Below, piece after piece: positions 7,428 through 57,434 of a DNA stretch of 64,000 bases. The DNA is from Cladocopium goreaui. Its lineage: Eukaryota > Sar > Dinophyceae > Suessiales > Symbiodiniaceae. The notes under the pieces are model-generated. The model searched no databases. It saw only the letters and a list, made by a program, of their open reading frames with translations, and was not told the origin of the DNA. The stretch covers positions 211,183 to 275,182 of the forward strand of contig CAMXCT020006146.1 of the NCBI GenBank assembly GCA_947184155.2, given 5' to 3'. Every line of letters begins with the position of its first letter. Position 1 is the stretch's first letter. A program made the position numbers and the translations under genes.

Positions 7428-10400
7428 TCAGTTTTCCAAGTGCTTCATCAGTGGCAAAATGCGGCTGGCTATGGTGACATATCTGTTGCACAAGGCAAAG
7501 GGATAGTGCCCTGCGAGCTCTGATCTACGTTTCCACCCTTGCTTCGTGCGCACTCCCCCGACCGCATGCACATGCCTTGAACGGCAACTGCAGTGTTTTT
7601 CGAGCAGTGGCAAGTCTTTCAAGTTACCGACAAACTGGGTGTGCTTCCGGCATGGTCCTAGCTTCCCATGTTCATCACGCAGTTTCAACCCATAAGAACA
7701 TTGGTGCATGTCAACACTATGAACTTCCTTACATGTCAACTTTTTGCACATTTCAGGCATGACCCAAACATACGAAGAGGCAGGGTTTTCCAGCGTCCAA
7801 AGGTTTCCCACTGACTCAAGGGCCTTTATTAGACAAAGAGTCCGCCTTAGTAGTTCATTTCCTATGATCTCACGGCTAAGGGTTCCATCCCCTGCCGGGC
7901 AGTGACGCCTACGTGTGCCATGGTTTGCATGCTGCAGTATGGAAAAGGAACAACACGGTAACCCAAAATGCCACAGCTGTCTTGGTCTCTTTGCATCTTT
8001 CAACAACTGCCTGAAAACCTTATCATCCAGTAGGTCATGAGATTCTTTCACCTGGGCATTGGTCCTTAGTTCTATAGGGGGGTCCACCTTGAAACCTTTA
8101 TGCCTTTTAAAGACTTCAGTCAAACGCGCCCTACCGGCAAAGATCTCTCGGAAAGTCCAGTCCTGGCATGTTTCGCTCATGGCAGCCTGCACATCAGCTG
8201 CTGGTTCAGCTTTTTTGTCGGTGTTCCGAACCGGCGCGTCAGTTTTTGGCTCGGGGTCTATATCCCATGAAGCAAAAGTCTCCCAGGATGGATCACTCCA
8301 CTTTTTCCGAGCCTCATGCTCAAGGAGCGCTTGGAGTCCAGGTGATCGATATTCTTGAACCACTTCTAAGATACTTTTCTCCAGCAAGTCATCATGGGTG
8401 CATGGAACAGGTTTGGGGATAGGCTTAAACCGTGAGGGGTAATCTGCAGGGTTACTATGAGTATCTACCCAAAGGTTTACCATCTGCAAATCACCTGTCA
8501 GCAGCCAAGGAAGACAGCTTCTCAAGCCATGGTTCATATTTTTTGAACTGCTCCTACCTTTTGCGAAGGCCCCTACCACTACTCTGCTGTCACACAAATT
8601 TACCGCTCGACATTCACCACGCCCCTCATTGACACGACTTTTGATCTCTTCTTTGAGCATGTCAAGTTCAAGCAGGTTGATATGATCTTTTCTTGCAAAG
8701 CGGCATGACTGTGTGGCCACCCAGTGGTGTTTAGAAAGGCTACGCAAAACGGCATCGGGAGCACGCGTCATGTTTGACTCTGGTGGCAGTGGACTGTCCT
8801 CCCAGTCAAGCCTTGTGTGTTCCCCCTTAGCTTCGCTGAAGCGATACAGCAGTTTCGAAAACATCTTACTAGTCAGTGTAGAGGCCCTTCCACCACCGCT
8901 TAGGCTGGCATCAGTTGCTGAAACACGAGTCGAAACTGGCCTACGGATGTTGGCCGTCGCAAGTGGCAGCAACAGCACAGCTGTGAGAATTTCATCACAA
9001 ATATATTGCGGCAACTTATGAGGACGACCCTCAGGAAGGCTATCAACATAAAGATACGTGTGATGGAAAATACTCATACATTCACGACGGTGCATGAATG
9101 GGTGCACAAACAAGCCTAGTAATTTTTGGAGAGATTTTTTAGTGGCACGCCTATGCCTAACTAACTCCACAGCTAACCATTCTATTTGTCTTAGTTTTAC
9201 TAGTGGGGTTCCCACCCGGCCACTTTTTGAATCCACCTCCGTACCCCACGCTTTAAAGGTGTATTCTTTATTAAAAGCCTTTTTCTGGGAAGTGGGAAGT
9301 CCTAGTTCTGCGTACCTGTCCCGTGATCTGGCCATCAAGGTTTCGTCCTCATAGGGTGTCCTATCACGCCAAGGTTTCTTGTCAACAATTTGGAAAACCA
9401 AATGGTCGTCTATGTAGAGTCCTTCAAGTGTATCTGAGGCGGGAAAAAGCTTACCATACCTGAGAGTTTGATCCGGCTTTAGGCATCCAGCGGCTTTTAG
9501 GACACCTTCGTGCGTTGCCTGGGCAATATCGACACCGTTTGTGTCGCCCATGCACACTACTCTAAAGGCTGGGTAATACCTAAGCGAAGGTGACAGGCCC
9601 AGGTCTCGCAGCTTACTTCCTGAAATAGAACGACGAAAACAATTACGAGGGAGCCACTCATCAAGGTGCTTGATAAGATAGAAATAGTTGGATAGATCAT
9701 CTCCAGAAGCCCTTATGCTCTGATGGTCCTCAAGAATTATTTGGTTTAACATTACCCCTGAAGGAAGTTCACACCAATTCAAACGCCTTTCCCTTTGGTT
9801 TAACGGACGCCGGTCATTTATGAGTCGGTCTGAATCTGGTTTGTGTGGCACCCCAAAAAGCCCCCCTTTTATAACCGTATCCCCTTCATAGATGGCTTCG
9901 TCCACTGGCACGAATGAGATCATCTGAGCACTGTGCAACTTCCCCAACAGACGCGGCCAATCTTTCGGGTCTACTTTATGGCAGGCTTTGCAATCGCCCG
10001 GTACCGGTCCGGGGATGGGAATGGCATGCGGCATCGACTCAAATTCAGTGACACGATCATGAGACAGGTGTTCTCTAGGATCCAAGATACCTGCAATATC
10101 TGGGACTGAAATGCGGTCAGGATTTACTTGCATTGCGCCACACATAGCTTCATCAAGATCTACAGTAGGATCATACTGGCTAAAACGAATTCTACTTATT
10201 AATTCATCAAGTTTTGCCGAACCCCTATCCAAGGTCCCCCTAGGTTGGGTCACAAAGCAACAAACTTTTTTGTACATTGCTCTCGCATAGCTTTCATGAA
10301 GGGCAGTCCACTCCCCTAGCGATGCGCGTGAGATGGCGGCATTTGCAGCAAACTTACGGCTGGGTGATCCACTTTCTAAAAAATTGAAAAGGCACCATAG

Positions 10401-11837
10401 CAAATGCATCCACTCCAAAGCCTCCCACTTTTGGTCAGATCGGAGGCCTCGTCCATGCTTAGACTTACCCGGTGGCTTGGTCCATGGCAGCATTGACGGG
10501 AACAACGTGGTGGTCCCAGTAGGCTTACTGGGTGTACTTACCCCTGTCTGTATAGACCTATAGATCCTAGCAAAACGGGCAAAGGATCCATGAGTGCTGT
10601 TAATTAAACCAAAAAGAGGACTCCTATCTTTTGCATGCTTCTCTTGTGGAAGCTCCGGAGTCGTGCAGCTCGGAGGTGATTCAGCCAGGCCACTCACTTT
10701 CACTCTGGAGGCTCTTCCTGCTTCTTCTTGTTGCCTTTCCCTTTTTTGCCCTTTCCGCCTTCTTCTTCGTGCTCGCCCTTGTTGAAGTGTTTCGATCTCT
10801 TCTCCAACTTCTGTAGGGCGTTCAAGTACCCTGCCACCAGCTCCAAATCTTGAGGCTCCCCCCCAAACTTCGGAACTTCTATCGGGTCCTGGTACCTCAA
10901 CAGCAACCAACTCGCCTTCCATGAGCCTTGGTCCAGCGCAGTCTGATGGATAGCTCGGAGAAGCTGCACTACTTCGAGGGCAGCTTGGTCCGGGCGATTC
11001 TTCAGCAAGGTTTGCAGGATCTCTGAAAGTGCAAAGTGGCATCGCAGGAGAGTGCGTTGTTTTCCCCAGTTCAACTTTCTCGAATAGTCTGACAGGCTGT
11101 AAGCTGTTTCTAGCGACGCACCCAAGAAGTGCTCCACCTCCCGGATGTATCTTTTCACATGCTTCATGGGTTTTCTTCTCATAGAGCGATGGCCTCTTCG
11201 GTAAGCCCTCAAAGCACGTGAGGCTCCTCCCTTTTTCCCATGGCTGCTGTCGGACTGAGAACTGCTGTCCTGGCTTTCCTCTGGGTCCGACGGTGGCGCC
11301 TTGGATTTTTTCTTTGTTCCCTTCAGCACCTTCAGCAACTCCATGGTGATCAAGGCATTGATCCTGCTGCTGGCCACCTCTTGGTTGCCCCCAATTGCAA
11401 TCTTTTCCAAAACAGTCTCTATGCCACCTGAAGAATCCCGCTGATCCTTCTCGGAGTCTGCCCGGAGCAGTGCATAACGACTGGCAACCTTCTTTGTGCT
11501 TTCTTTGGGTTTTTCTGAACTGGTAGCCAAACCTTGACCACCTCTTTTTGCTCGGCTCAGCAAATCCAGAATCTCCTTCCCACTGCCCTCGCCCTCGTCT
11601 GAGGACTCGCTTGACGAATCGCTCATTGCCTTCCCGTCTGCCTTCGGCGCAGGCACCGGTTCGGCAGGAACGTCTTCCGACGCAGTGGCATAGTGAAGAT
11701 CCTCTTTTTGCAGTGTAACCAAACCCACAGACTGCACAATGGTTGCGGCTACTTCTAGCCCTCTCATGGACTGATTGCACTGTAGTCTCACCTGTGCGGG
11801 AGCTCCCTCGACCAGCAAGAAGCGACATCCCTCGCAT
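7428..11837 (-). CDS. Pol: reverse transcriptase - RNase H - methyltransferase-like
   Basis: The open frame is 1,469 codons, but the part overlapping the Gag ORF (about 10,700-11,837) is Arg/Ser-rich and probably not translated in this frame; coding likely begins near 10,700, with the first good Met at 10,493. RT fingers (LINDRRPLNQRERR) lead to the catalytic YIDDHL at about 9,402-9,416. An RNase H domain follows (VSATDASLSGGG, LLELDMLKEE, VNLCDSRVVV, VDTHSNPADYPSR). The C-terminal 235 residues are methyltransferase-like: IFAGRARLT (SAM-site-like), FGLPCCSFS (PC motif, about 7,945-7,965), TLENPASSYVW (about 7,775-7,800), a Cys/His cluster and HYPFALC. DIRS elements classically carry a methyltransferase after RNase H, so the order fits; a cytosine-C5 type is inferred from PC and ENP. 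Confidence 0.85.
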   Translation of the reverse strand: MRGMSLLAGRGSSRTGETTVQSVHERARSSRNHCAVCGFGYTAKRGSSLCHCVGRRSCRTGACAEGRREGNERFVKRVLRRGRGQWEGDSGFAEPSKKRWSRFGYQFRKTQRKHKEGCQSLCTAPGRLREGSAGFFRWHRDCFGKDCNWGQPRGGQQQDQCLDHHGVAEGAEGNKEKIQGATVGPRGKPGQQFSVRQQPWEKGRSLTCFEGLPKRPSLYEKKTHEACEKIHPGGGALLGCVARNSLQPVRLFEKVELGKTTHSPAMPLCTFRDPANLAEESPGPSCPRSSAASPSYPSDCAGPRLMEGELVAVEVPGPDRSSEVWGGASRFGAGGRVLERPTEVGEEIETLQQGRARRRRRKGQKRERQQEEAGRASRVKVSGLAESPPSCTTPELPQEKHAKDRSPLFGLINSTHGSFARFARIYRSIQTGVSTPSKPTGTTTLFPSMLPWTKPPGKSKHGRGLRSDQKWEALEWMHLLWCLFNFLESGSPSRKFAANAAISRASLGEWTALHESYARAMYKKVCCFVTQPRGTLDRGSAKLDELISRIRFSQYDPTVDLDEAMCGAMQVNPDRISVPDIAGILDPREHLSHDRVTEFESMPHAIPIPGPVPGDCKACHKVDPKDWPRLLGKLHSAQMISFVPVDEAIYEGDTVIKGGLFGVPHKPDSDRLINDRRPLNQRERRLNWCELPSGVMLNQIILEDHQSIRASGDDLSNYFYLIKHLDEWLPRNCFRRSISGSKLRDLGLSPSLRYYPAFRVVCMGDTNGVDIAQATHEGVLKAAGCLKPDQTLRYGKLFPASDTLEGLYIDDHLVFQIVDKKPWRDRTPYEDETLMARSRDRYAELGLPTSQKKAFNKEYTFKAWGTEVDSKSGRVGTPLVKLRQIEWLAVELVRHRRATKKSLQKLLGLFVHPFMHRRECMSIFHHTYLYVDSLPEGRPHKLPQYICDEILTAVLLLPLATANIRRPVSTRVSATDASLSGGGRASTLTSKMFSKLLYRFSEAKGEHTRLDWEDSPLPPESNMTRAPDAVLRSLSKHHWVATQSCRFARKDHINLLELDMLKEEIKSRVNEGRGECRAVNLCDSRVVVGAFAKGRSSSKNMNHGLRSCLPWLLTGDLQMVNLWVDTHSNPADYPSRFKPIPKPVPCTHDDLLEKSILEVVQEYRSPGLQALLEHEARKKWSDPSWETFASWDIDPEPKTDAPVRNTDKKAEPAADVQAAMSETCQDWTFREIFAGRARLTEVFKRHKGFKVDPPIELRTNAQVKESHDLLDDKVFRQLLKDAKRPRQLWHFGLPCCSFSILQHANHGTRRRHCPAGDGTLSREIIGNELLRRTLCLIKALESVGNLWTLENPASSYVWVMPEMCKKLTCKEVHSVDMHQCSYGLKLRDEHGKLGPCRKHTQFVGNLKDLPLLEKHCSCRSRHVHAVGGVRTKQGWKRRSELAGHYPFALCNRYVTIASRILPLMKHLEN

Positions 11838-12458: not shown

Positions 12459-12501
12459 CCCCATTGAGCCTCAAGCAAACGTACAAAACATGCGGTTCAT
12501 G
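12459..12501 (-). repeat. Split direct repeat A1 (left end)
   Basis: 43 bp identical to the inner part of A2 at 5308-5350 (CAAGCAAACGTACAAAACAT core). It marks the 5' end of the element next to a TATATA tract. Confidence 0.9.
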
Positions 12502-12688
12502 TGTATATATATATATATATATCCGCCGACCCCGGCAGACCCAAGGGGGTGCGCGCCAGGGAATAAGAGTTCCAACACCAACACCAACACCACAATCATG
12601 ACAACTACTGTATAACAACCAACACCACCACCACAACAACAACAGCAGCAACAACAACAACAACGACGACAACAACAACAACAACGAC

Positions 12689-14025: not shown

Positions 14026-14263
14026 TGCGAGAGCCCCCTGGTCAGGTTCACCAAAGATCGTAGATATGCACAATGCAAGTTCACTAATTTGGGGGCTTCT
14101 AATGAATCAGGCACCACAGGAGCACACTGATGGATGGCCGCAAGTCTTTGTTCAGGCAGCGATCAGGTGCTGACCCCACAAAAGGGGGATGGATCCGAAG
14201 CTGGCGGCGTGATTTGCTGTAGCATATGTGGCAAGATGATCAACAGCCAATCTCAGATTTTCA
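14026..14263 (-). repeat. 3' LTR
   Basis: 238 bp beginning TGCGAGAGCC and ending CAGATTTTCA on the plus strand; the same sequence recurs at 21045-21282, offset 7,019 bp. On the minus strand this is the downstream LTR, and the RNase H frame stops just inside it. Confidence 0.95.
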
Positions 14264-15479
14264 TGGCTTCAAAATTTTCTTTTGATCATCAGCCAGGGAA
14301 AGTACCGTGTGCAACCAATAGACATCACTTTGGTTCTGCTGGAGACGCATAGCCCTTTTTCGGCGGGCCGACTGAAAAGTGGGATCATACACAATTCTCC
14401 AAACACCCTGTTGAAGTGCTCTCAAAAGTGGCTCATGTTTCCAAGGCTTAGTGAGCCCATCGGCCATTTCCTGTTCACCATCAACCCACTTAAGTGTGAC
14501 CCTAGCTTGCTGCAGCCGTTCCTTTATGGCAAGAAGCTCAATGGCGGTTCTCTTTTCCTCCATCTGAAGTCCTGAAGTTTCAACCTTGACAATTCCATCG
14601 AAAATATTCCTAGCATCGCAGACCATGGTGGACTCAAAAGAGGACAAATATTCATCAGTATGTCTCAAATCAATTTTCTGAGTACACTCAACATCCACAA
14701 AAGCCAGTTTGACAAATTCATGGTTGTCCAGGGCATTGGCACTCATTTGGGCTTCAGCACTCGTGGAAGATCGAGCTACCCTACGAAGTCTACGGCTAGT
14801 CCAATTCAAAACACAAAAAGAAGTCTTTTCTCCCCAAAGAACACCTTTCTGCATAAGGAGGGTAATCTGACCACCTTGACTGGAATCATCTTTACGGGTA
14901 GCCCAACTAGCATCCGTGAAAGTGACCACCGTGGCATCACCAGTAACAGGAACAAAATCCAAACCACGATTAAAATGTTTTCTTTGCAACCGAACCAATT
15001 TATTGACAGAACAAAGATCTCCAACACAAGCTTGTTCAACACATCCTTGCAAATGAGATACCGTGGCCAACATCCAAGGTGCACTTTGAGTTGCTCTCCA
15101 GTTCAAAGCTCCCAAAGCTTGTCGCATCAAACGGCGCTCTGAATGAGTCACTGGTTCATACGTTTCGTTTCTACGCTCTTGTGACACATTGATTTCATCA
15201 ATACTCAGAGCAAACCGTTCTTGGTTGACATGAATAGCAAAATTGAAATCCTGAGTGATTTCACAGCCACAGTACATGAGGCTTTCCTTTTGGGCTTCAG
15301 CCCAAGACCCAAAAGTGAATTTTTTGTCGAAGTCGTTCCAGACTACGCTCATACTCAACGCCCCGTCCAGCACACAAAACATCATCAACATGAAACCCAA
15401 GATACCCACACACTTTGTTGTTTTCATCAATTCGTTTATAAACACTTATCAAGACTATGGGGAATCCAACCATCATCAA
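14261..15479 (-). pseudogene. Copia pol 3' part: RT palm and RNase H, frameshifted
   Basis: This part holds the catalytic and C-terminal half of pol. GYLGFHVDDVLCAG (the RT YxDD-type site reading HVDD) lies in a short frame 15479-15297; the following 394-codon frame (15445-14261) carries the RT connection and a copia RNase H (VVTFTDASWATRKDD, SSTSAEAQMSA, TMVCDARNIFD, KWVDGEQEMADGLTKP). Joining them needs frame changes near 15,440 (after SLDKCL) and near 15,310 at a CAAAAAATTC run. The domains are otherwise well preserved, so the damage is recent or is sequence error; programmed frameshifting is unlikely because two shifts would be needed inside one domain. Confidence 0.85.
14264..14284 (-). 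other. Polypurine-tract candidate
   Basis: On the minus strand an A-rich stretch (AAAAGAAAATTTTGAAGCCA) lies directly before the TG of the 3' LTR, where plus-strand DNA synthesis would prime. It is interrupted by TTTT, so the exact tract is uncertain. Confidence 0.4.
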
Positions 15480-18400
15480 TCAAGAAAGTACTGAGAGACT
15501 CAAACCAACGCTTTGGTGCATTCAAGAGGCCATAAATAGCTTTTGCAATACGCAGGATTTCATTGTCTTTCATGGACAGGGCAGTTCGCACTTCTGGAGG
15601 TGGCATTCCATATAGTTCGTCCTGAAGTTCGGTTTTACCACCTTGCAGGAAAGCTGTTTTGATATCTCCTGAGGCTACGGGAAAGTGTTTCCTGGCAGCG
15701 CATGTCAACAACATGTTTCGACCCAGAGTAGAAAGTGTGGGAGATTCTCTGGGCAAGTGGAGGAGTCTAGGATCCTGAAAACCCTTGATGATCAACCGAG
15801 CTTTTGCACGTTTCCCAGTTTCATTACCAGCGCTATCAGTGACCACTTTCCAAGTATATATCCAACGCATTTGCATAATGCGTTCCTCTGGAATGCCAGC
15901 CGCAGAACAGATTTGAACAGCATCACTGGAAAGAAAGGAGTCAATTTCCTTTTTCATGGCTTCATCAAACTGCTGTTGTTCATGAGGTAAGAGTTTTCTC
16001 AAAACAACTTCAGCTCCCTTCTTAACCTTCGCATTGATCACCCAGGCACTCTTTTGTCGGTGGACGTCACGAGGTGCAAGTACTAACTCCATTTGAATAA
16101 CATCAAGTTCTTGAACATAAGCAGTGAAATTTTTCAACAAGTCACTAGACACATGTTCTCCAGACACTGTCTTCGCAGTGTCCTGACAGCAAAAGGTTGT
16201 TCTCACACCTACGGACTCTCTTGAATTCTGGCATCCCTCACTCAGTTCGTGTTCTCCTGGCTCAACGCTCCATGTGGTCCCGACTGCAAGACCGTGAGAA
16301 TCTGGGCCATGCAGGCTTCCATCTGCGCCATGCGTTGGTGCAGCTGCTCGTTGCCATTGTGGAGGTTCTGAATGTCGTTCTCCATGTTCTCCACCTGGCT
16401 CCAATGAGACAGGCTCTCGTCGTCCGGAATGGGCATTGGAGTCAACTGACCCATGGCTTCCAGTTCTGCTGCTTGGCGGGACCCCTCCTTGGTGTGCACC
16501 TTCTTCACGTTCGAAGGTTTCAGGGGAAGTTGATGGCTTCCGCTTCCTGGATGTCCCAGGACATTCTCCTCCTCGAGCTCCTGAGCCAGACGACGATGCA
16601 GGTAGATCTTGTACTTGTGGATGGTGCGGAAGACTGGGTCGTCGTCCTTGATGTGGCTTGCCACCCAACGGTTGTAGCTCTTGTCCTTGTAGATCTCCTG
16701 GAAGAGGTGCCCCTTGTGGCGTTCCCCTTGGTCCATCTTCATCGAGCCGAGGTCTTCGAGCGACATGCTCTGAATCTCCTCTCGGCTCACTTGTCCCTTC
16801 TTGTCCTGAAGGTCCAACAGAGTCTTCAGGTCGGCGCTTGGCATCGACATTGCGCTCTCGGGTTGTGTCACCGAATGCTTCGTCAGGATAGCGGAGTTCA
16901 CTGAGTGGCTTTTTGCCTCGAGCCCTAAAATGAGGAACATCAGGTTCTTGCGTGTCAAGACGTGTCATGGCTTCGACATCAGAAGTCAGATCTAGATACC
17001 TTTGTTGATTTTTGATGCCTTCCAACAAATCAAAGAAGTTTCGTGGTCCATTAATGTCCTTGTCCAGATGTCTCAAATCATGCTGCACAGGACGTAGCTG
17101 CTCAGGTGAACATCTAAGGATTTTACCAGCATGTGAAATCCAAACGACAGATCCCAAATGTTGTCCAGTTTCATAAGAGGAAGTCTTTTCATGTGTCAAA
17201 ACACGTGCTGGTCCATGCCAATGTCCCCCATACCGTGATCCCTCTTTCACTCCTCTTCGAAAGTAATAGACGAGTTCGCCCAATTGGAACTCTTTCAAAG
17301 GTCGGCATTTCGAATGGAGAGCTCGAGAGAGCCTTCGCTGTGCATCCACTTTCAAAAACAAACGTTGGGCAGTGACCTCAGTTTGAAGATTCTCCTCAAA
17401 GGTCAGGTCTTCACGACGTGACTGCAGTGGCATGTTTTGATACTGCTGCAAGAAGGAAGACAACCTACTGTGGCTTTGTCCGAAAGCCCATTGATTAGGA
17501 CTGTATCCTCGCACCTGATGCATGGAGTTTTTGGCACTGACTGCTAGGGCTAACAACTGATTACAATCACGATCACTCCCAAGTTCCATACTCAACAAAT
17601 TCATTTGTTCTTTCAAAGTCTGAAGATGTTTGGAATGTTTCCCAGCTTGCCATGCCGACTCTCCCGCAATAGGTTCAAGTTTCATGCCAAACGTTTCCAA
17701 CCACTCAATAACTTCCACTTTTCTAAGAAACCCTTCTTCATCGTAGCGCAAGCAAGAGGGTGCAGGAAAACACTGGAGCCAGGTCTTCTCAAAAGCCTGT
17801 TTGAAATCAGCTCCAGAAATATTTCGAAAAGGTTTCTCAAAACCAGATCTGATGATTGCGGCACAGTGGAAGTCAGTGGCTTCATCCATCATACTAATCC
17901 CAATACAGTACTGAGGTTTTTCCCCGGGTTTCAAGGCTTCACGAGGAGTATGCCACCAAAAGGAATCAACACTAACACACTGCCATTTTTCATAGATTTT
18001 GGGAACAACAGACTGGCGGACAGTACTTCTCCTACCCCTCATGAGACAATCAGGACAATCAAATTCTTCAGCAAGTTGAATGATTCGGGGTTTGGAACCA
18101 GCATCTTTCAACAGCCTAATAAAGGATTCTTTGCCAGGATGACCCAAATTCCGGTGAGCATCACGAATCATTTGTTTATATGCGGCATCATTCCCAGTGT
18201 CCTCCTCAGATTCTCTATTATCGTCCCCAGGTGCTTGAGGTTGGTCTTGTTCCTCCCTATCAGGAACGGGTGCAGCATTGATATTGTCCTCAGCACCTGC
18301 CACCCCTTCAGCCAAAATGGCGTGAGTGGGATCAAAATCAAAACTGTTGTTTTCGGTTGAATCCTTCACCTCACAGCTTTGAAAAATAGGAAACAAATCA

Positions 18401-19293
18401 ACAACGTCTTGCATCAAGGCTTTGGCAAAACGACGACACAACAAAGGAGGATAAACTGCTGTGGATGAAGTGATGCTACCTTGGATGACGCGGTGTGCTC
18501 CAGTTCCATGAATGCACTTTCGTTCCAGAGCTTTTCTGATTCCAGCATGTGTGGAAAACCAACCCCATGGTTTCTTGACAAGTTCACGTGTATCCCTACT
18601 ACACATGCCATGCATACAAACATGAACAGCAAAACGTTCACCACACAACCGAACCATTTTTCTCATGTCAGGTACCCTCCAGCTCTGTGCATGAAGTGGG
18701 TGTTCACCTCCCCCATGGTGTGGTCCCATGTCCGGTATCAGTCCTACACTGCCGTTCAATTCTTGTACCTGAATTTCCAAAAGCCTACGACAGTTCCTTA
18801 GCAAACGTCGACTGATCCTACGGCGTTCATGAAGCCGAGACACTTGTTCCTCAGTTCGTTGATTACAATTCGAAAAAGCAGTCCATGGATCACAAGGTGG
18901 GCTAACATGAAGGTACCGGGGTTTATATTCTCTGATTAACTTGGAAACATCTTTGAAACCCTGATTGGTGGTGAGATCATACCCATTATGAATCCCAACA
19001 GCCATAGCCCGTCCCCCTGCATCCTTCACTGCTTGGGTCAGTGGTGCATCCCAAGGTGCACAAACTTCCAACAAATCCAACGAACTTTCACCTATGAGGT
19101 TGAGAATGTCACCCACTCCAGCCAACATGGTATCTTGGAGCTCTTGCGCGCACTCCCGCTTACAGTCACCCATGAATTGGTACTGTGCGTCCCCAACATC
19201 ATCAGGAGGCTCCACAAAAACACAGAAACCATCATCAAAATTGGTTGCACTGAATTGTGAATCTAGGTTCCTATCTCCACTCAAGACCCTCAT
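15436..19293 (-). CDS. Copia Pol: methyltransferase-like - integrase - RT N-terminus
   Basis: 1,285 codons. Residues about 72-294 are methyltransferase-like: LLEVCAPWDAPLTQAVKDAG (SAM-site-like), SPPCDPWTAF (131-140), EHPLHAQSW (197-205), a Cys/His segment CIHGTGAHRVIQG (260-272) and YPPLLC (281-286). The integrase follows: HRNLGHPGKESF...CPDC zinc module, then a core with VSVDSFW, LRYDEEGF and an LKEQ-type Glu helix. A Pro/Ser/Gly-rich linker (about 16,250-16,960) leads into RT (RWIYTWKVV, KARLIIKGF, ASGDIKTAFLQ). The frame ends at SLDKCL before the catalytic Asp pair. The protease lies in the upstream Gag frame. Confidence 0.88.
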   Translation of the reverse strand: MRVLSGDRNLDSQFSATNFDDGFCVFVEPPDDVGDAQYQFMGDCKRECAQELQDTMLAGVGDILNLIGESSLDLLEVCAPWDAPLTQAVKDAGGRAMAVGIHNGYDLTTNQGFKDVSKLIREYKPRYLHVSPPCDPWTAFSNCNQRTEEQVSRLHERRRISRRLLRNCRRLLEIQVQELNGSVGLIPDMGPHHGGGEHPLHAQSWRVPDMRKMVRLCGERFAVHVCMHGMCSRDTRELVKKPWGWFSTHAGIRKALERKCIHGTGAHRVIQGSITSSTAVYPPLLCRRFAKALMQDVVDLFPIFQSCEVKDSTENNSFDFDPTHAILAEGVAGAEDNINAAPVPDREEQDQPQAPGDDNRESEEDTGNDAAYKQMIRDAHRNLGHPGKESFIRLLKDAGSKPRIIQLAEEFDCPDCLMRGRRSTVRQSVVPKIYEKWQCVSVDSFWWHTPREALKPGEKPQYCIGISMMDEATDFHCAAIIRSGFEKPFRNISGADFKQAFEKTWLQCFPAPSCLRYDEEGFLRKVEVIEWLETFGMKLEPIAGESAWQAGKHSKHLQTLKEQMNLLSMELGSDRDCNQLLALAVSAKNSMHQVRGYSPNQWAFGQSHSRLSSFLQQYQNMPLQSRREDLTFEENLQTEVTAQRLFLKVDAQRRLSRALHSKCRPLKEFQLGELVYYFRRGVKEGSRYGGHWHGPARVLTHEKTSSYETGQHLGSVVWISHAGKILRCSPEQLRPVQHDLRHLDKDINGPRNFFDLLEGIKNQQRYLDLTSDVEAMTRLDTQEPDVPHFRARGKKPLSELRYPDEAFGDTTRERNVDAKRRPEDSVGPSGQEGTSEPRGDSEHVARRPRLDEDGPRGTPQGAPLPGDLQGQELQPLGGKPHQGRRPSLPHHPQVQDLPASSSGSGARGGECPGTSRKRKPSTSPETFEREEGAHQGGVPPSSRTGSHGSVDSNAHSGRREPVSLEPGGEHGERHSEPPQWQRAAAPTHGADGSLHGPDSHGLAVGTTWSVEPGEHELSEGCQNSRESVGVRTTFCCQDTAKTVSGEHVSSDLLKNFTAYVQELDVIQMELVLAPRDVHRQKSAWVINAKVKKGAEVVLRKLLPHEQQQFDEAMKKEIDSFLSSDAVQICSAAGIPEERIMQMRWIYTWKVVTDSAGNETGKRAKARLIIKGFQDPRLLHLPRESPTLSTLGRNMLLTCAARKHFPVASGDIKTAFLQGGKTELQDELYGMPPPEVRTALSMKDNEILRIAKAIYGLLNAPKRWFESLSTFLIDDGWIPHSLDKCL
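16242..16958 (-). CDS. ORF in a second frame inside the copia pol linker
   Basis: 238 codons in a different minus-strand frame from pol, lying exactly over pol's low-complexity linker between integrase and RT. The product looks more protein-like than the overlapping pol frame: a segment GERHKGHLFQEIYKDKSYNRWV with regular H-x-G, E-I-Y, D-x-S-Y and W residues, then a likely coiled coil (QVENMENDIQNLHNGNEQLH). I do not identify the family with confidence. Either the region is dual-coding, or two compensating indels moved pol's frame and this is the ancestral linker. Confidence 0.55.
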   Translation of the reverse strand: MTRKNLMFLILGLEAKSHSVNSAILTKHSVTQPESAMSMPSADLKTLLDLQDKKGQVSREEIQSMSLEDLGSMKMDQGERHKGHLFQEIYKDKSYNRWVASHIKDDDPVFRTIHKYKIYLHRRLAQELEEENVLGHPGSGSHQLPLKPSNVKKVHTKEGSRQAAELEAMGQLTPMPIPDDESLSHWSQVENMENDIQNLHNGNEQLHQRMAQMEACMAQILTVLQSGPHGALSQENTN

Positions 19294-19335
19294 CCCATGT
19301 TCAGGATGTCCATTACAATCCTGGTGGAGCTGTCC

Positions 19336-21006
19336 CTAGAGCTTCGGTTCATCCCCCTTTGGGTCCGGATCTGACTCAGGCGCACTCAGTACAGGAACCG
19401 CAGGAGGCCACATCTCAGTAGATCTCATCAGTCCACGGCGCCCACCAAAGACAGTGACTGGTAGAAGGAGATGATTACCTGGACTCCTTTCCAGCTGATA
19501 CGCTTCATGGTTGATGCCCTCAAAGACAGCTGTCCCCTTTCGGAAGTCAATGGTGGCTCGGGAATCATAGAGGAACTTTGCACTGAGCAGCAAAGGTGTA
19601 CTGCCCTCCACAACATGCACATCGACCATCATCTCATTTCCCAAGACACCAAGGTTCAGGTGTGCAAGTGCCAGAGCCTTGCTACTGTGATCACCACCAT
19701 AGACAAAGCTCTTGTGGATGTTACGGTCGATCTCAAACTCGTCCTCAGTGTTGAGGCCAAGCTCCTCGTACATGTCTGCGAGATCTTGCAAAGTGTTCAC
19801 TCCAATCACGTTATCTGAGGCACCACTATCCAGGACAGCCTTGCCACGAAGTTGGTTTTCATGGCCAGTCGTGGCCCAGACCTGTGCACACTCGTCACCT
19901 TTATCACATGCATTCTCTGCAGTTGGTTCTTGCCATTGGACACCGACAAAACCCACCTTGCCACTTCCTTTTCCACTTTGGCCTTTGCCATCACTTTGAG
20001 CTCGTTGTGGGCAAATACGAGCAATGTGGCCACGCTTCCCACACCGAATGCAGGTCTTGTTGGCATGCTCATTGTCTCGATTGTAGTTCCCCTTGCCCTG
20101 AGACTTACCACGACCTTTTTGACTGTCAGGGTGTCTCACAGGGTAAAAACCCCTCGCCGTTCTAGCTTGGTCCAGGGCACGACGAGCATCCTTGAAGTTG
20201 GCAAGTATCTCAGTATCATCAGGCTCATCTACGAGTGCAACATAGGCTTCTTGGTACCAAGTGGCCAATTCCTCAAGCTCTTCATCATTGGTGGCGGCAT
20301 GGCTTTCCATCACATCTTCGTCCACATTCTGGTAGACCTCCCCTTCATCAGGTCGAGAAGGCTCATCAACCAGCAAGGCTTGTCCACCATCTTTTCGGCG
20401 ACGACGCATCTCTTGATCCTTGGCAGCTAGGCCGCCTCCACTCCACATCTTTTGAAGGGAGGCCACCACGTGTTCCAGCTTGTATGACTCTGAGCATCCA
20501 CGAACATTGGCGATGTCCGATGGATCCATCCTCATATAGCAGTTCAACAGGAACCAGCCAAGGACTTCTGTTGGCAGTTTGCCTTCTGATCCTGATTCTT
20601 TGAGGGCTTTCTCTAATCTTCTGGTCAGACTTCGAAATCTGGGTTCATATTCTGAAAACTCCTCACCGTCCTTGCGGTAGACTTCTTTGCGCACAAAGAA
20701 CTCGTTGAAAGCATCTCCAAGAAGATCTACCTTTTCACGGCCTCGAGTCTTCTCGAGAAACTTGAGAAAGTACTGCCACCCATCGGGTTGGCGTAACTTC
20801 TCTCTGTCAATCTCAGCGAGACTGTCAAAGGCCTTTCCAGTCAGATTGGATGCAAGCCGAGGTCCTAGAAGTTTCTGGTCCTCCTCTTTCAGTCCATCAG
20901 CTCTCAACTCAACACGCAGCTGATAGTCCGTCCATTTGTTCCAGTCACCATCCCATGTGGGATACTTGAAGTCCACTGAGTCCTCCTTGTTCCCCATGGT
21001 CGCCAT
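19336..21006 (-). CDS. Copia Gag-protease
   Basis: 556 codons, starting 38 nt inside the 5' LTR boundary; a second Met three codons on (MATMGNKED) is equally possible. Residues 1-190 resemble a copia capsid domain with a YMRMDPSDIANVRG helix region. A CCHC zinc knuckle CIRCGKRGHIARIC lies near residue 317, preceded by a GRGKSQGKGN basic tract. The aspartic protease active site is LDSGASDNVIG in the C-terminal third. The frame stops 43 nt before the pol frame opens, so pol would need readthrough, frameshift or separate initiation. It appears intact. Confidence 0.9.
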   Translation of the reverse strand: MATMGNKEDSVDFKYPTWDGDWNKWTDYQLRVELRADGLKEEDQKLLGPRLASNLTGKAFDSLAEIDREKLRQPDGWQYFLKFLEKTRGREKVDLLGDAFNEFFVRKEVYRKDGEEFSEYEPRFRSLTRRLEKALKESGSEGKLPTEVLGWFLLNCYMRMDPSDIANVRGCSESYKLEHVVASLQKMWSGGGLAAKDQEMRRRRKDGGQALLVDEPSRPDEGEVYQNVDEDVMESHAATNDEELEELATWYQEAYVALVDEPDDTEILANFKDARRALDQARTARGFYPVRHPDSQKGRGKSQGKGNYNRDNEHANKTCIRCGKRGHIARICPQRAQSDGKGQSGKGSGKVGFVGVQWQEPTAENACDKGDECAQVWATTGHENQLRGKAVLDSGASDNVIGVNTLQDLADMYEELGLNTEDEFEIDRNIHKSFVYGGDHSSKALALAHLNLGVLGNEMMVDVHVVEGSTPLLLSAKFLYDSRATIDFRKGTAVFEGINHEAYQLERSPGNHLLLPVTVFGGRRGLMRSTEMWPPAVPVLSAPESDPDPKGDEPKL

Positions 21007-21027
21007 GGCTCAGATCTATTGGTGCCT

Positions 21028-21044: not shown

Positions 21045-21282
21045 TGCGAGAGCCCCCTGGTCAGGTTCACCAAAGATCGTAGATATGCACAATGCAAGTT
21101 CACTAATTTGGGGGCTTCTAATGAATCAGGCACCACAGGAGCACACTGATGGATGGCCGCAAGTCTTTGTTCAGGCAGCGATCAGGTGCTGACCCCACAA
21201 AAGGGGGATGGATCCGAAGCTGGCGGCGTGATTTGCTGTAGCATATGTGGCAAGATGATCAACAGCCAATCTCAGATTTTCA
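21045..21282 (-). repeat. 5' LTR
   Basis: 238-bp copy of the LTR at 14026-14263; no difference was found when the two were compared by eye. It would hold the element's promoter, but no motif is obvious. Confidence 0.95.
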
Positions 21283-23060: not shown

Positions 23061-23089
23061 GCATCCTTACGCTCATATTTTCATAGTTT

Positions 23090-30906: not shown

Positions 30907-30908
30907 GC

Positions 30909-32877: not shown

Positions 32878-32999
32878 AGTTCTCAATGTCAAGGAGAATT
32901 TTTGTTTTTGCGACGGGTCTTTCCCGTGCTCTGGATGCTGTACCACACGGCATTCCCAAATGGATGTATTCTGGGGGGCGGTTTTTCAAAAGATCAATT

Positions 33000-33215: not shown

Positions 33216-33221
33216 TGGTTG

Positions 33222-38443: not shown

Positions 38444-39678
38444 GTTGTGGATCTTGTGATGTCACGTGCTTGAGCGCTTTGTCCAACCCCTCTGCAATCA
38501 GGAGCCCACCTGTTAGGTGAGCACAAACCAAAGCCATCAGTGATCTCTCTCTCCTCCCCAGACCATTCAACCATCATCGGTCTGCCCCAGTTAGAGTCTG
38601 AAACAGTGTGCTGGATGCCACTCGCGTTGGTAGGACCATTGGTCTGTGCAGCCGGTTTCTCAGCCACCATCTGTTTGGAACCATTTTCCGCATCAGGTTT
38701 GGGGGTATCTCCACCCTTGTCGACATCCATGGGCAGAGCAAGACTGCTTTGCCCACAACACAAGTGCTCACCTGAAACTGTAGTTGGAGGTGTCTGCCCA
38801 ACCACTTCCGTTATCTCGTGGGTGCCCCTTTTCCGAAGGACGGAGACCACGAGGTTGGCCAAATATTTGCACAAGCCAGGTGGATATGAAGCAGCGGGGC
38901 CGGTCACCCAGCGGCCCTGGGAGTCCTTGCCAATCAAACGCCTGATGTGGCGTGTGTGGGTGCATCTAGCGGGCAATGGCCCCACATATTTGCCTTGCTC
39001 GTCGAAGGCCGGCCATTTGGAAAATGTTGCTCTGATGCCCGGTATTGAAGAGAGAAACCTTGTAGGTTTGCTAGTATCGGCTCCAAAACCGCATTGGAAG
39101 ATTGCCCAGGTTGTTGCATTGGTTGTGATCTGCAAGTTGCGCATCTCGTCAAGCTGCCAGATGGATGCTGGTGCTTCGCCATTGACCGTGCCCAGGTCCT
39201 CCGGGTGCTCAATCAAAAAGAATGCCCCAACTTCTGATGCCAGGTGAGCAGCACGTATGGTTTGCGAAACAAAATAATTTGCCAAATCGACTTTCTTGCG
39301 CTGTGCTGAAGACAACCATGGAAAACCCCATGGCCATGACTTGTTGCGTTGTGGGCGAGGACCTGGATGAAGTTGCCACTGGAATCGAACTCGGGACCAT
39401 GTCCCACAAGGAGGTGACATAATCAGAACATCGTATTTGCCGTCTTTGATCTCTGCAAAAATCTCCTCCCAAAGCTGGTCACGACTGAGGTCGTCGGCCT
39501 CAGAGCGCTCAATGTCCACTTCGCGGACATGCAGGTCAAAATCCTGCACCTGGGAGTACTCATGCAAAAAGGAATTGATATCTGCACGACGTGGGCCCCT
39601 GCAAACAAGTAGAGAACATTCAAGGTCTGTTTGACAGGTCCATTGCCCTCTTTTGAAGCCCCACGTTCTGCTTGTCAC
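38398..39678 (-). CDS. Methyltransferase-like domain of a retroelement
   Basis: 426 codons; the start overlaps the end of Gag by 4 nt. Motifs in order: SLLVCRGPRRADINSFL (22-38, nucleotide-site-like), VREVDIER, YDVLIMSPPCGTWSRVR (82-98, PC motif with Cys91), FFLIEHPEDLG (153-163), CGFGADTSKPTRFLSS (196-211), CTHTRHIRRLIG (239-250) and ASYPPGLCKYLA (263-274). The order of PC, acidic-x-P, a phage-like KPT motif and a terminal YPP-LC recalls cytosine-C5 methyltransferases but lacks an exact ENV motif. The C-terminal third is a low-complexity linker. Activity is unproven. Confidence 0.75.
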   Translation of the reverse strand: MTSRTWGFKRGQWTCQTDLECSLLVCRGPRRADINSFLHEYSQVQDFDLHVREVDIERSEADDLSRDQLWEEIFAEIKDGKYDVLIMSPPCGTWSRVRFQWQLHPGPRPQRNKSWPWGFPWLSSAQRKKVDLANYFVSQTIRAAHLASEVGAFFLIEHPEDLGTVNGEAPASIWQLDEMRNLQITTNATTWAIFQCGFGADTSKPTRFLSSIPGIRATFSKWPAFDEQGKYVGPLPARCTHTRHIRRLIGKDSQGRWVTGPAASYPPGLCKYLANLVVSVLRKRGTHEITEVVGQTPPTTVSGEHLCCGQSSLALPMDVDKGGDTPKPDAENGSKQMVAEKPAAQTNGPTNASGIQHTVSDSNWGRPMMVEWSGEEREITDGFGLCSPNRWAPDCRGVGQSAQARDITRSTTCSDVLFMNRWEICA

Positions 39679-40964
39679 TCATCGCCAGCCTTGCCCTTGT
39701 CATCCCCTCCTTGTTGCGAAGGTTTGTTGTTGGAGTACTTGTGGTGTTCACGTGCGGAGTGTTTGGCATAGCATCCTTTCACCCTGCAAGCATGAACTCT
39801 TCCACACCGACCAGCGCACCCCTGGGCGTTGAACGCGAAGCATAACTCCCTGCCGTCCGGCGTGTGGGTTACCAGACTGCTGCCATTGAAATCCCTGGGG
39901 CCCTTGCCAAACTTGCCTTTGCCTTTGCCACCTTTGGTTGGAGCCCCTTTGAAGTTGGACTTCCCTTTGGAGCTCGTGCGCTGCCATTTGTTGGGCTGCG
40001 CTGATGGGCGCTGATTGTTCCAGCCAACGCCCAATGCAATCGGTGCAGTGAAGTGAGCCTCCTTGATCTCTGCGTCCCTGATGACGGCAGTCAACCCTTC
40101 TGCAATTGTATGTGTGCCCGCTTGAACAAGCTTGAAAACCTCTTTCCGCATTTTCTGCTCATAGCTCAGGATGACAGCCCAAGGCGGCTTCACTGCATGG
40201 GACTGGCCTTCAACGTTGAACTTCAGGCCCAACACTTTCTCACCAAGCAGGTATTCTGTGTATTTTGACCAATGCTGCAGCTCAAGACCATGCAACCACG
40301 TCTTGTTTCGGAACTTCGCTGACATGCAAAGCCAGCTGACTGCTTCCAACTTCAACGCCTTGCGAAGGGACTCTGTGTCCTTCGGAAGACGGCCCTTGGT
40401 CTTGACCTTTGTGACCCGGACATGGCCTGACGAATCAAGAGACGTCTGCAAGGCCGAAGAGCTGGTGTCGGCCCTGGATGAAATCTCATCAAGCCCCAAG
40501 GCTTGAGGCTCGTTCGCCTCGCACTCCTCAACCTTTAAAGCAAGGTATTCATTGCTAGGTATCTCAACGTCCTGCAATTTGCCCAAGACCACTTCAACCG
40601 CTTTGACCATTGCTTGACGCTCTGTCTGCTGTAAAACGCGGGGCATGCCCAGCACCTTTGTTTCAGCTTGAAGTTCTTGCTCCTTTGCTGTCATAGTGCG
40701 TGAGAGCTCCCACGCGGTCAACACTTTGGCCACGTTTGCCCTGGTCTCAGGACTTGCTATTGGATCAATACGGAAATCTGTGCGCAATGCCTCACGCACC
40801 TCAGCCTTTGTATCACACATTGAGCTGAAGACCTTCATAGTCTTGTAGTATTGGGCCAAAGTGTGTTGTGTGGTGAGGGACACATCAGCCTCTTGCCAAA
40901 TATATTGCAAATCCGAGCTGACATGCTCTGAAATGTATGCCCTCCGTGCAGCGTCGTCAACCAT
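39675..40964 (-). CDS. Gag with zinc finger
   Basis: Coding probably begins at the ATG at 40964 (MVDDAARRAYISEHV); the frame is open to 41069 but the extra residues read as hydrophobic leader sequence. About 429 codons. A helical N-terminal region (LQYIWQEADVSLTTQHTLAQ) is followed by KTKGRLPKDTESLRKALK, a basic GKSNFKGAPTKGGKGKGKFGKG tract and a Cys/His cluster CFAFNAQGCAGRCGRVHACRVKGC, similar to the Gag at 33.2 kb. It overlaps the methyltransferase frame by 4 nt. The frame is intact. Confidence 0.75.
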   Translation of the reverse strand: MVDDAARRAYISEHVSSDLQYIWQEADVSLTTQHTLAQYYKTMKVFSSMCDTKAEVREALRTDFRIDPIASPETRANVAKVLTAWELSRTMTAKEQELQAETKVLGMPRVLQQTERQAMVKAVEVVLGKLQDVEIPSNEYLALKVEECEANEPQALGLDEISSRADTSSSALQTSLDSSGHVRVTKVKTKGRLPKDTESLRKALKLEAVSWLCMSAKFRNKTWLHGLELQHWSKYTEYLLGEKVLGLKFNVEGQSHAVKPPWAVILSYEQKMRKEVFKLVQAGTHTIAEGLTAVIRDAEIKEAHFTAPIALGVGWNNQRPSAQPNKWQRTSSKGKSNFKGAPTKGGKGKGKFGKGPRDFNGSSLVTHTPDGRELCFAFNAQGCAGRCGRVHACRVKGCYAKHSAREHHKYSNNKPSQQGGDDKGKAGDE

Positions 40965-41864
40965 CGTTGGCAACGCGGATGACCAGGTGAGTGAATTGCA
41001 AACAAGAATGGAAATGAGATGAAAATGTAAAGAACAGTCAAGCAAACTCTCAATAAATTTAACGGACAACCACAGTCTAACGTTAAAAATTTTCTTGAAG
41101 CCCTCACTGCACCTAGAAGCCTGATCAAAACAGGTGTGCGCTGACTCTGAATCTGAACTGAAGTGGCTCCATGCCGCAACATTAAGTGAACTGCTGACTT
41201 CTGAAACAGCGAACTGAATTGCACAGAGCGTGCCAAGTTTTCAACTGAAAATCCCGACTGAACATTCCAAAACCTCACATGAAGGCCACTGAATCTCACT
41301 GCATTTTCTTTTGACACCTCCGCAGGGCTGAGTTGATGACCTCGCGGCCCACATCATTGTGTGCCCTGTGCACCCTAAAACTACCTGGCCTGTCACCGGC
41401 CGGGTACTGCACAGCCAACATGTTGAAACATATGAATATGAAATTAAGGACAAGACTGAAGACCCATGCCACACAACAACTCAGCTAAAAACAAAACAAC
41501 CTGACTGAATCACTCCGAGGCAGGTGCCAGCAATGCCGAAGGTTCAGGCCGCTTTGGCCGGTGAAAGCACCAGTGAATTAGCAGTGACACTGTATTGTTG
41601 ACATGTCGAAACTGCAGTGAGTTACAACAAAACAACTCGAAAAGAACTCATGACCCATCTCAACATCCTACACTCTGAAGGACTCACGCCGAGGCCAGCG
41701 CCAGCAATGTCCAGATTTCGGGCACGTTCATCCCGTGGATGCACTGGTGCGCAAACATCAATCTGAAACACCTGCAAAGGAAACATGGAAACATCACAGA
41801 ATAAACATGACCACAAGAAGCAAAAGGAAAGCCTGATTCAACTTGTTCTTTCAAAAACCTTTTC
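40965..41864. other. Leader / intergenic, no gene recognised
   Basis: Lies between Gag and the YR remnant. It contains CTGAA-rich words resembling the repeats at 35-36 kb but no clear copy of them. Confidence 0.45.
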
Positions 41865-55692: not shown

Positions 55693-56554
55693 TACGCATT
55701 AGCCAAAAAGACCTGAAGTTTTCCTTGGACAAGGGTCAGTGAAGGTTGCAGCAAAGATGCAAAGCCCTGACGCAAATGTTGCAGGTGAGATGAGGGTCAG
55801 ACAGGCTCTAAATCGCAGAGCCCGAGCCTTCGACCTTGCCCAGCTGTGCGCCTACACCACCATGGAAGCATGGCACGAGCGTGTTTTTGAAGTCCTACAA
55901 AAAGAACCCGCTCCAAACGCAATGTCAGTCACAATGCGCCAGCTGAAAGAGGCCGACAAGATGCTGTTCAGAAAGCTCGCTGAGAAAACCAGAGGAGCCT
56001 TGGCACAGCAACCAGATGGGTCCAAACCAATGGAAACCCATTTTGAGGCATGCGCTAACAATGCAGAAGTCCAGTTTTGCCTCATTCCAATGGTAAAAGG
56101 AGCACCAAGAGCCAATTCAGTTGATACCCCATCCCCTAAGCAGAAGGGGAAGGGAAAAGGCAGTGGAAAAGTCAGAAAGGATTACAACAAGCCTTCATAT
56201 GGTGCTGGAGCACAGCCGTTGCCGCCAAATTGCCATCAGATGACGCCACAGGGAAAGCCAATTTGCAATACCTTCAACAGAGGGACATGTGACTTCGCAA
56301 AGCCAGGAAAAGGTGCAAGAGAGGCTTTCATGTGTGCTGGCAGTGCTTCAAACCGAAGCCTTTTTCCGCATGTGACCATTCGTGACAGACGGCACCCCCT
56401 TTTTGGGGAGAATTTGGAGCAGCCACCAGGAAACGAGCCAAGTCAGTGCATAAGACTCCACCGCCCAAGCATGACACGTTGCAAAGTTTTTCCAGACGAA
56501 TCTAGCACCACTAGAGCGCTTTTTTGCGAAGTTTTGCAGGGTGTGGACGGCTAA
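55693..56554 (+). pseudogene. Gag with zinc finger, 5'-truncated
   Basis: The frame reads KDLKFSLDKGSVKVAAKMQS, homologous to the internal part of the Gag at 34.0 kb (DPKVSLDASGNIKITSKATA), then VTMRQLKEADKMLFRKLAEK, a KQKGKGKGSGKV tract, and PICNTFNRGTCDFAKPGKGA with the start of a Cys/His finger (C-x7-C). The part after the finger reads into unrelated sequence and stops at 56,554. The first 130 or so residues are absent because the neighbouring repeat replaces them. Confidence 0.72.
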
Positions 56555-56649
56555 GCCGTGCCGCCAAACAGTCTCGTTTCTGCATTTTTGCCAGTTGACG
56601 GACCCCGCAACGAACTCAAGGTTGAATGCCCAGTTTTGACCTTAGACTA

Positions 56650-57434
56650 GTGCGTACAGAAGAGCAGCAGTGTCTCCCTGACACCTACGACAGTTGGAGC
56701 CACCAGCTATCCATGTAACTTTGCCATGTGGCACAGGAAGCAGAGCCAGAGAGCGTCCTGTACCCGCTCACCTGGTAGCAAAGGGGGCACCACAGCCTCG
56801 GCCATTGTGCAACGTATCCCATCCTCTTGGGATGCCTGGGCTGACACACCATGAAAAACAAAGGGTTGAAGGTGCCAACAAGCTGGAAAAAATCGCGCTT
56901 GACTTGCTTGTCATTGCCGTCACTTTGTCATGTGTTTTCAGCTTGAAAAATCCTAGCAACTCATGGATGTGGAACGTTCTTGTTGTTTATGTCCAACAAT
57001 TCAATGATGAGCGTTTTCTGCAGGCCTGGTTGAACGTGTTTGCAGTCCAATTTAGTAACTGTGCGCATGGGGGAGAACGACCAAAACAGACCACATGGAG
57101 ATGCACCCATGATGTTTACAATCACCTGGCCAAGCCATGCCCAGGAGACCACGAGCATAAGCCCTACCAGGTTACCAAATCCTTTGGCACCTGGACCTTC
57201 GACACCGCAGCCACAAGTGAGTCCCGTGGTTGCTGTGCATCCGCCTTTGCCCAGCACTTCATGCAGAATTTTTCCCAGTGTTTTGACCTTTCACCCCCGA
57301 AAAAGCCCACACTGGGTCACACTCAAAATATACACCAAAAGACTTCAATCCCTGAGCACCCTTGCATAACCAACCAAACACCTCAACCACTTGATGAATT
57401 TAAGGTCCTTCCTCCACAATTTACAGGGGGGTAA
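56650..57434 (+). pseudogene. Methyltransferase-like domain, partial
   Basis: AIHVTLPCGTGSRARERPVP (PC motif), VAKGAPQPRPLCNVSHPLGM (same as QSQGAPQPPALRSADHPLGL at 30.9 kb), FSLKNPSNSWMW (ENP-like, Glu replaced by Lys), CAHGGERPKQTTWRCT and GDHEHKPYQV. The SAM-binding N-terminal motif is lost. After TWTFDTAATSES the frame changes. The Glu-to-Lys change at ENP would be expected to hurt catalysis if this is a real methyltransferase. Confidence 0.68.

Follow-up and report, generated by a model that had tools for sequence, protein, structure and literature searches.

Do the retroelements of a single dinoflagellate locus share one DNA methyltransferase, and of which kind would it be? The locus is a 64-kb stretch of the Cladocopium goreaui assembly (1.166 Gb), called the window below, with many retroelement open reading frames (ORFs). 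In five of these elements an earlier note had recognised related motif series recalling cytosine-C5 (C5) methyltransferases. Our answer, which we hold to be fairly probable, is that four retroelement families (one of Ty1/copia type, one DIRS and two others) carry a compact C5 methyltransferase-like domain of the phage, archaeal-virus and plasmid kind rather than of the Dcm or DNMT kind, and that it methylates the element's new DNA.

The domain and its four families

Every motif of the earlier note that was looked up lay where it had been placed (Table 1). Motif I, absent from its list, was found in the DIRS domain as FREIFAG and in the copia domain as LLEVCAP. In C5 methyltransferases the conserved motifs of concern here are named I, IV, VI, VIII and X. 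In five domain alignments the catalytic PC and Glu (motifs IV and VI) followed motif I in the C5 order, and the blocks ran as I, IV, VI, VIII, a Cys/His segment and a YP-LC end. As far as the alignments tell, this block order is that of C5 methyltransferases, with the YP-LC end probably occupying the place of motif X.

Trimmed alignments of the families (27 rows for o38, 18 for DIRS, 19 for copia and 18 for f, the last comprising f30 and f56) were compared by hhalign. The o38 family was joined to DIRS at 98.6, to copia at 98.3 and to f at 99.5%, DIRS to copia at 95.5 and to f at 99.0%, and copia to f at 96.7%. Scores of the six pairs were 61-162, those of the controls at most 25.2 (column-shuffled, 10 per pair) and 27.0 (reversed). 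A six-frame scan of the window with the o38-family hidden Markov model (HMM) recovered all five copies (E 1.7e-117 to 4.2e-5), while the best E in reversed sequence with any family HMM was 0.05. Chance as the source of the motif similarity, which the earlier note had named as a possible refutation, was ruled out by these controls. The count of at least five copies also stood, and a sixth was found on the minus strand. We regard the five listed domains as homologous and, with the sixth remnant, as members of four families: DIRS, copia, o38 and f30/f56.

The copies differ in preservation. An uninterrupted domain was seen only in DIRS and copia; o38 is frame-broken within motif I, and motif IV of f30 is unreadable in its frame. 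In f56 motif I lies in a different frame and the YP-LC end is lost, so that the generalisation that all domains end with A-x-YP-x-LC fails for this copy. Relatives collected by protein search numbered 72 for the o38 ORF and 35 for the DIRS domain, and a joint profile of copia, f30 and f56 found 69 at E<=1; 26 of the 69 were assigned to copia by pattern and P0153, P0168 and P0175 by reading, the remainder being taken as f-type. The few named database relatives come from Cladocopium goreaui and Symbiodinium.

Fold, nearest relatives and origin

AlphaFold2 models were obtained for the DIRS domain (predicted local distance difference test, pLDDT, 79.8; predicted template modelling score, pTM, 0.78) and for a copia relative, P0130 (pLDDT 68.5, pTM 0.63; most of the core about 90, ends disordered). 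For each model, all 50 structural matches listed from Foldseek's best 1000 chains were C5-type DNA methyltransferases. DNMT3A/B, DNMT1, M.HhaI, ZMET2 and DIM2 were common to both, and the copia model also matched 3g7u, titled putative DNA modification methyltransferase; a Foldseek search of the PDB with the DIRS model agreed with the C5-type matches. Against viral models two proteins of 210 and 218 residues came first for both queries; the second-best viral fold match was a putative cytosine DNA methyltransferase of Tetraselmis virus 1, and the first adenine-specific entry ranked 35th. The methyltransferase fold of C5 type, first suggested by the motifs, is thereby upheld, as a prediction, for the DIRS and copia families. 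A Dam-type adenine enzyme was considered and rejected: there was no Dam/D12 Pfam match at E<=10, and the motifs read PC with ENP, not DPPY.

Phage tblastn searches with P0109 and P0081 gave weak matches only. One of them led to the 218-residue methyltransferase of Haloferax tailed virus 1, and from there to 54 phage records at E<=0.01. Compared by hhalign with 10 compact phage-type C5 methyltransferases, o38 was joined at 97.7, DIRS at 97.4, f at 96.1 and copia at 67.3%, against 2.6, 28.3, 17.6 and 0.5%, respectively, for Dcm and four Dcm-type phage enzymes. With both sets trimmed before the recognition domain, five sequences each, the values in the same order were 97.2, 96.5, 94.9 and 72.4% for the compact set and 5.8, 53.0, 27.7 and 2.6% for the Dcm-type set; the two sets join each other at 98.8%. 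DNMT3A alone reached 0.1-2.2% with the family profiles (0.7% with DIRS). Of the sequences found, those closest to the families are compact (~220 residues) C5 methyltransferases of phage type; Dcm and DNMT3A are more distant, and the tie of copia is weak.

These compact enzymes (of Haloferax tailed virus 1, Bacillus phage BM15 and Inoviridae; vir520 is annotated phrog_363) resemble the retroelement domains in their length of about 220 residues and their lack of a large recognition domain. Several also have ENP, C-x-YG...KPT, a Cys/His segment and a late P-x-x-LC. They are, however, stand-alone genes, whereas the retroelement domains are fused into Gag-Pol and very divergent. The Cys/His and YP-LC end, which had been suggested to mark a specific and perhaps undescribed subfamily, does go with such a subfamily, but its Cys/His residues and late Pro would be partly inherited, with counterparts in some phage-type enzymes. 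A plasmid search with the BM15 enzyme gave 2 records with compact relatives, so a bacterial or archaeal source is possible. Viral contigs searched with DIRS, copia, f and o38 queries, and prokaryote contigs searched with the f family, contained no relatives. In the literature searched (titles and starts of abstracts, with subscription papers mostly outside it) nothing describing retrotransposons with a compact phage-type methyltransferase was found.

Two trees were calculated. The first, with 61 rows, contained 13 of the 27 o38, 10 of the 18 DIRS, 11 of the 19 copia, 12 of the 18 f and 9 of the 10 compact sequences and 6 canonical ones; for the second, with 72 rows, two long compact rows and DNMT3A were dropped and 14 of 80 IMG/VR loci added. 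In both, branches were long, each family was monophyletic and the four families formed one clade (support 100/98). Swapping on repeated occasions, which the earlier note had suggested, is not supported by trees in which each family is monophyletic. In the approximately unbiased (AU) test a tree constrained to keep all compact rows together did no worse than the unconstrained one (p 0.547), so the test lends no support to nesting of the retroelement clade within the compact group. The trees favour a single origin of the four families, which would need transfer between Copia and DIRS-like elements; the direction was presumably from virus to retroelement. Tentatively, and somewhat short of calling it probable, we propose that a dinoflagellate retroelement acquired one compact C5 methyltransferase of viral origin in a single event and that this enzyme later moved between the Copia and DIRS superfamilies. 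Element-encoded DNA methyltransferases would then include a second population that has stayed hidden.

Conservation, proposed role and alternative readings

With 98 of 3734 candidates scored, the organism's own genome showed at least 131 matches to the o38 ORF; with 117 of 3193 scored, it showed at least 118 to copia. Both counts are lower bounds, and one copy can yield several matches. The catalytic Cys was present at 30/30 o38 loci, in two of them in a second frame, and at 20/20 copia loci, and the Glu at 30/30 o38 loci. Database proteins with a readable motif IV neighbourhood had the Cys in 52/53 cases for o38 and 25/25 for f, where the search pattern partly presupposes it. By strict pattern it was found in 26/28 DIRS proteins (one of the two misses still has a Cys) and 16/21 copia proteins (all five misses still have it). 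Around motif VI the Glu was seen in 68/68 o38, 27/29 DIRS, 23/26 f and 23/23 copia proteins, again with patterns that partly presuppose the match. The ratio of nonsynonymous to synonymous substitution rates (dN/dS) had a median of 0.105 for o38 (range 0.062-0.864; 90 pairs from 30 own-genome loci) and of 0.20 for copia (0.154-0.227; 10 pairs from 20 loci). These pairs had dS of 0.05-1.5, saturated or short ones being left out (254 of 435 for o38, 75 of 190 for copia), and are not independent of each other. Both families, o38 and copia, are under purifying selection.

The best supported reading is an active C5 methyltransferase domain in Gag-Pol that acts on the element's new DNA, where activity, substrate and timing are what we infer. 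The domain would be made as part of Gag-Pol and packaged with the reverse transcriptase (RT). It would then methylate cytosines in the fresh DNA copy, either ahead of integration or during it, and new insertions would thereby look like the host genome, which is methylated. A short segment from motif VIII to the YP-LC end, with its conserved Cys and His and perhaps a small metal site, may stand in for the large target-recognition domain; because of this replacement, the enzyme probably has loose site preference or is directed to its sites by the Pol complex.

Several observations weigh against this reading. No significant methyltransferase match was obtained in Pfam, NCBIfam or PDB sequence searches, and the methyltransferase PHROGs 2882, 363, 5999 and 757 were matched only at E 0.025-0.23. 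DNMT3 topped both fold lists, with M.HhaI within a tie for DIRS. The tie of copia to the compact set is weak, as given above, with a score of 38.8 against shuffled maxima of 15.6 and 20.1; DIRS and f exceeded their shuffles with the Dcm-type set too (35.0 and 31.3 against 19.1 and 18.9), and several single compact sequences scored at background, the best single one reaching 95.6%. AU tests rejected neither a tree with copia outside the group of retroelement and compact sequences (p 0.194) nor one with DIRS joined to the canonical set (p 0.101). By strict pattern the Glu was present in only 15/19 own-genome copia loci. In 12 of the 90 o38 pairs dN/dS was >=0.5; each of the high pairs shown has as a member L111, L119 or L120, three loci with matches divided between frames. 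The observed/expected CpG ratio of elements and domains was 0.49-0.64, bracketing the window's 0.61. CpG depletion was accordingly discarded as a sign of self-methylation, elements and domains giving no signal apart from that of the window.

As for the sequence searches, PF00145 matched none of the five window domains, 0/19 copia rows and 0/18 f rows, and one of 18 DIRS rows at E 0.32. For the o38 relatives the only PF00145 check was the precomputed Pfam field, which is empty for 175 of the 176 relatives collected (exception P0038). This failure limits membership by model, not the fold. The specific subfamily suggested in the earlier note is supported, and neither Pfam nor NCBIfam recognises it.

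The alternative that fares best, though we consider it unlikely, is that compact methyltransferases were captured separately on two or more occasions, copia apart from the DIRS-like elements. The unrejected tree with copia apart agrees with it, as do the long branches and the fact that copia is linked less strongly to the compact enzymes, to DIRS and to f. The single, well supported clade of both trees speaks for one capture instead, and so does the Cys/His and YP-LC end common to the four families.

A second alternative takes its cue from published work. PF00145-detected DNMTs were described in LINE and DIRS elements of Symbiodinium, with retrotransposon DNMTs able to methylate CG (de Mendoza et al. 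2018, PMC5890265). Capture of C5 methyltransferases by dinoflagellate retrotransposons, which the earlier note had taken as known, is indeed documented there. The DIRS domain of the window could be a fast-evolving member of SymbioDIRS-Dnmt3, a captured host Dnmt3, with the other families derived from it. The termini of our element have the A-coding-B-A-B layout described for SymbioDIRS-Dnmt3 (PMC5890265), and both have the methyltransferase in Pol and a separate recombinase ORF. DNMT3A/B at the top of the fold lists, the unrejected tree with DIRS among canonical enzymes and the 53% of DIRS with the trimmed Dcm-type set point the same way. We nevertheless regard this origin as improbable: PF00145, with which the published set was found, misses the window domain, DNMT3A and the DIRS profile meet at 0.7% where the compact set reaches 97%, and the fold ranks for DIRS lie within a tie. 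SymbioDIRS-Dnmt3 and SymbioLINE-Dnmt were classed as Dnmt3 or as a Symbiodinium-specific group (PMC5890265). The present families are set apart from that published description by escaping PF00145, resembling compact phage-type enzymes and including Copia.

Little credence is given to a domain that has stopped methylating and instead binds nucleic acid or plays a structural role within Pol. Divergence past Pfam detection and a copia motif I of CAP instead of FAG would suit such a role; the catalytic Cys in nearly all readable copies, the Glu in most and the low dN/dS would not. Methylation of RNA (element RNA or the tRNA primer) is quite improbable: C5 folds can act on RNA, as in Dnmt2, the Pol complex contains RNA and a large DNA-recognition domain is missing, but the entries in the fold lists and the phage relatives are annotated as DNA methyltransferases.

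The host elements and known systems

Table 1. Features of the methyltransferase-carrying elements and remnants, in window coordinates
Feature	Position	Strand	Evidence
DIRS terminal repeat B, outer copy	5074..5270	-	196/197 identical to 5348-5544 (1 mismatch)
DIRS terminal repeat A, inner copy	5308..5351	-	44/44 nt identical to 12459-12502
DIRS terminal repeat B, inner copy	5348..5544	-	pairs with 5074-5270
Tyrosine recombinase ORF of DIRS element	6237..7328	-	PF00589 E 3.2e-5, 24.2 bits, below cut-off 27.1
DIRS pol ORF, 1469 aa: RT-like and RNase H-like, then methyltransferase	7428..11837	-	RT/RNase H by reading
C5-methyltransferase-like domain, C-terminus of DIRS pol ORF	7458..8171	-	FREIFAG 8133-8153, LPCCSFS 7941-7961, LENPASS 7773-7793, HYPFALC 7488-7508
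DIRS terminal repeat A, outer copy	12459..12502	-	pairs with 5308-5351
Copia long terminal repeat (LTR)	14026..14263	-	238 nt identical to 21045-21282; TG...CA; CCCCC outside both LTRs
Remaining copia RT and RNase H region, other frame (frame break near 15.44 kb)	14261..15445	-	
Copia pol ORF: methyltransferase, HRNLGHP pre-integrase motif, integrase region, RT start	15436..19335	-	PF07727 RVT_2 E 1.2e-13; HRNLGHP read
C5-methyltransferase-like domain of copia pol ORF, between gag-protease and integrase	18394..19095	-	LLEVCAP 19054-19074, SPPCDPW 18883-18903, EHPLHAQ 18685-18705, VYPPLLC 18436-18456
Copia gag with zinc knuckle and DSGAS, which we take to be protease-like	19336..21009	-	PF00098 E 3.6e-4; DSGAS by eye
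Copia LTR	21045..21282	-	238 nt identical to 14026-14263
Decayed methyltransferase-like domain f30	30825..31421	+	f-family HMM E 4.3e-76; SLENPYRS 31083-31106, EAAYPELL 31356-31379
Sixth methyltransferase-like remnant, two frames (motifs I-II; then motif IV GMPCGTASRARERP)	32834..33221	-	f-family HMM E 1.8e-9 and 3.2e-9
Gag-like ORF directly upstream of sixth remnant	33222..34034	-	
RT ORF of o38 element	36503..37993	-	PF00078 E 0.034, weak, below cut-off
C5-methyltransferase-like domain of o38 ORF (38398-39678), motif I split by frame break	38824..39636	-	o38-family HMM E 1.7e-117; relatives P0001-P0072; SPPCGTW 39397-39417, EHPEDLG 39190-39210, SYPPGLC 38869-38889
Gag-like ORF of o38 element	39675..41240	-	56-aa stretch 39% identical to gag ORF 33222-34034, E 6e-7
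Gag-like ORF upstream of f56	55703..56554	+	28.8% identity to gag ORF 33222-34034, E 3.6e-23
Motif I remnant of f56, other frame	56515..56595	+	f-family HMM E 0.0023
Decayed methyltransferase-like domain f56, YP-LC end lost	56685..57281	+	f-family HMM E 1.8e-97; LPCGTGS 56721-56741, LKNPSNS 56943-56963

The positions proposed for the domain within the elements held in part. In copia it does lie before the presumed integrase region. Pfam gave no match to an integrase core in this ORF; the gag_pre-integrs model matched 4 of 19 copia rows weakly (best E 0.0093), and HxNLGHP was seen downstream of the domain in 8 of the 10 relatives long enough, and HxNLGHP or HxNLGHS in 14 of the 19 own-genome loci read. 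The copia element spans 14026-21282 (7257 bp) with TG...CA ends, and it is young because its 238-bp LTRs are identical. The CCCCC around it is suggestive of a target duplication in flanks that are C-rich (30 and 46% C). A five-copy array with a spacing of about 161-183 nt (13027-13944) adjoins one LTR, a long tandem array with 15-nt periodicity, open in several frames, occupies 21150-23261 on the plus strand, and a second copia-type RT/RNase H ORF was read at 49607-51586 (plus), beside which the HMM scan placed no methyltransferase.

For DIRS the position after RNase H rests on motifs, Pfam giving no RT or RNase H match in the pol ORF. Patterns that we take to mark the end of RNase H were found in 8 of 11 DIRS relatives with >=60 residues upstream. 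The position between Gag and RT, claimed for three elements, was borne out for o38, with its gag-like ORF and weakly recognised RT, and many own-genome o38 copies lie in open frames of about 900-1550 residues. The f30 ORF runs on into RT-like sequence by reading, to which Pfam lends no support, and around f56 only the gag side was recognised, with no RT identified. The two families with gag- and RT-like neighbours, o38 and f, are probably DIRS-like.

The sixth remnant and its gag lie on the opposite strand to f30, and on its downstream side the remnant meets the place where the f30 RT region ends. When RT and recombinase candidates were compared with one another only one pair matched, the RT-like ORF 53678-54469 (plus) and the f30-side ORF 32299-32877 (36% over 67 residues, E 5e-6); this match points to a possible additional f-type element upstream of f56. 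Tyrosine recombinase-like ORFs were noticed by eye at 42065-43756 (minus) and 59737-62475 (plus); Pfam was empty for 42696-43289 and 59737-61422. Two o38-family proteins, P0050 and P0029, have a conserved segment (HKDNRNA/HRDSRNA...) beyond the methyltransferase that looks dioxygenase-like by eye.

Other mobile elements with methyltransferases differ from these in the enzyme or in the element. The Dnmt3 retrotransposons of the charophyte Klebsormidium (PMC5890265), called Ty3/Gypsy elsewhere (PMC6338049), likewise carry a C5 methyltransferase, but by description theirs is a Dnmt3-type capture. DIRS1 elements have Dam-like N6-adenine methyltransferases (PMC5890265, PMC6338049), structurally unrelated to the C5 enzymes, whereas our domains have PC and E-N/H-P motifs and a C5 fold. 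The ParB-methyltransferase proteins of algal DNA transposons also join a mobile element to a prokaryotic-type DNA methyltransferase, yet the element is a DNA transposon and the enzyme of N4C/N6A type (PMC12477816). PMC5890265 reports Copia in Symbiodinium without any DNMT domain, while a 2025 paper citing it mentions that in streptophytes and dinoflagellates LTR Copia and DIRS elements carry DNMT3 (PMC12344493). The present families look to be a lineage of their own that had gone undetected, with Copia among its carriers.

Because retrotransposon DNMTs of dinoflagellates have been counted in the literature with PF00145, which does not pick up the present families, the load of element-encoded methyltransferases is probably underestimated. 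The statement that dinoflagellate Copia carries no DNMT needs revision. Should the enzymes be active, they would make it possible to ask in a natural setting whether elements methylate their own copies, and how a small enzyme lacking the classic recognition domain chooses its sites. If the proposal of a single capture is true, a lineage known for genome-wide CG methylation would contain a hidden methyltransferase population, of which two of the four families alone match about two hundred places in this one genome.

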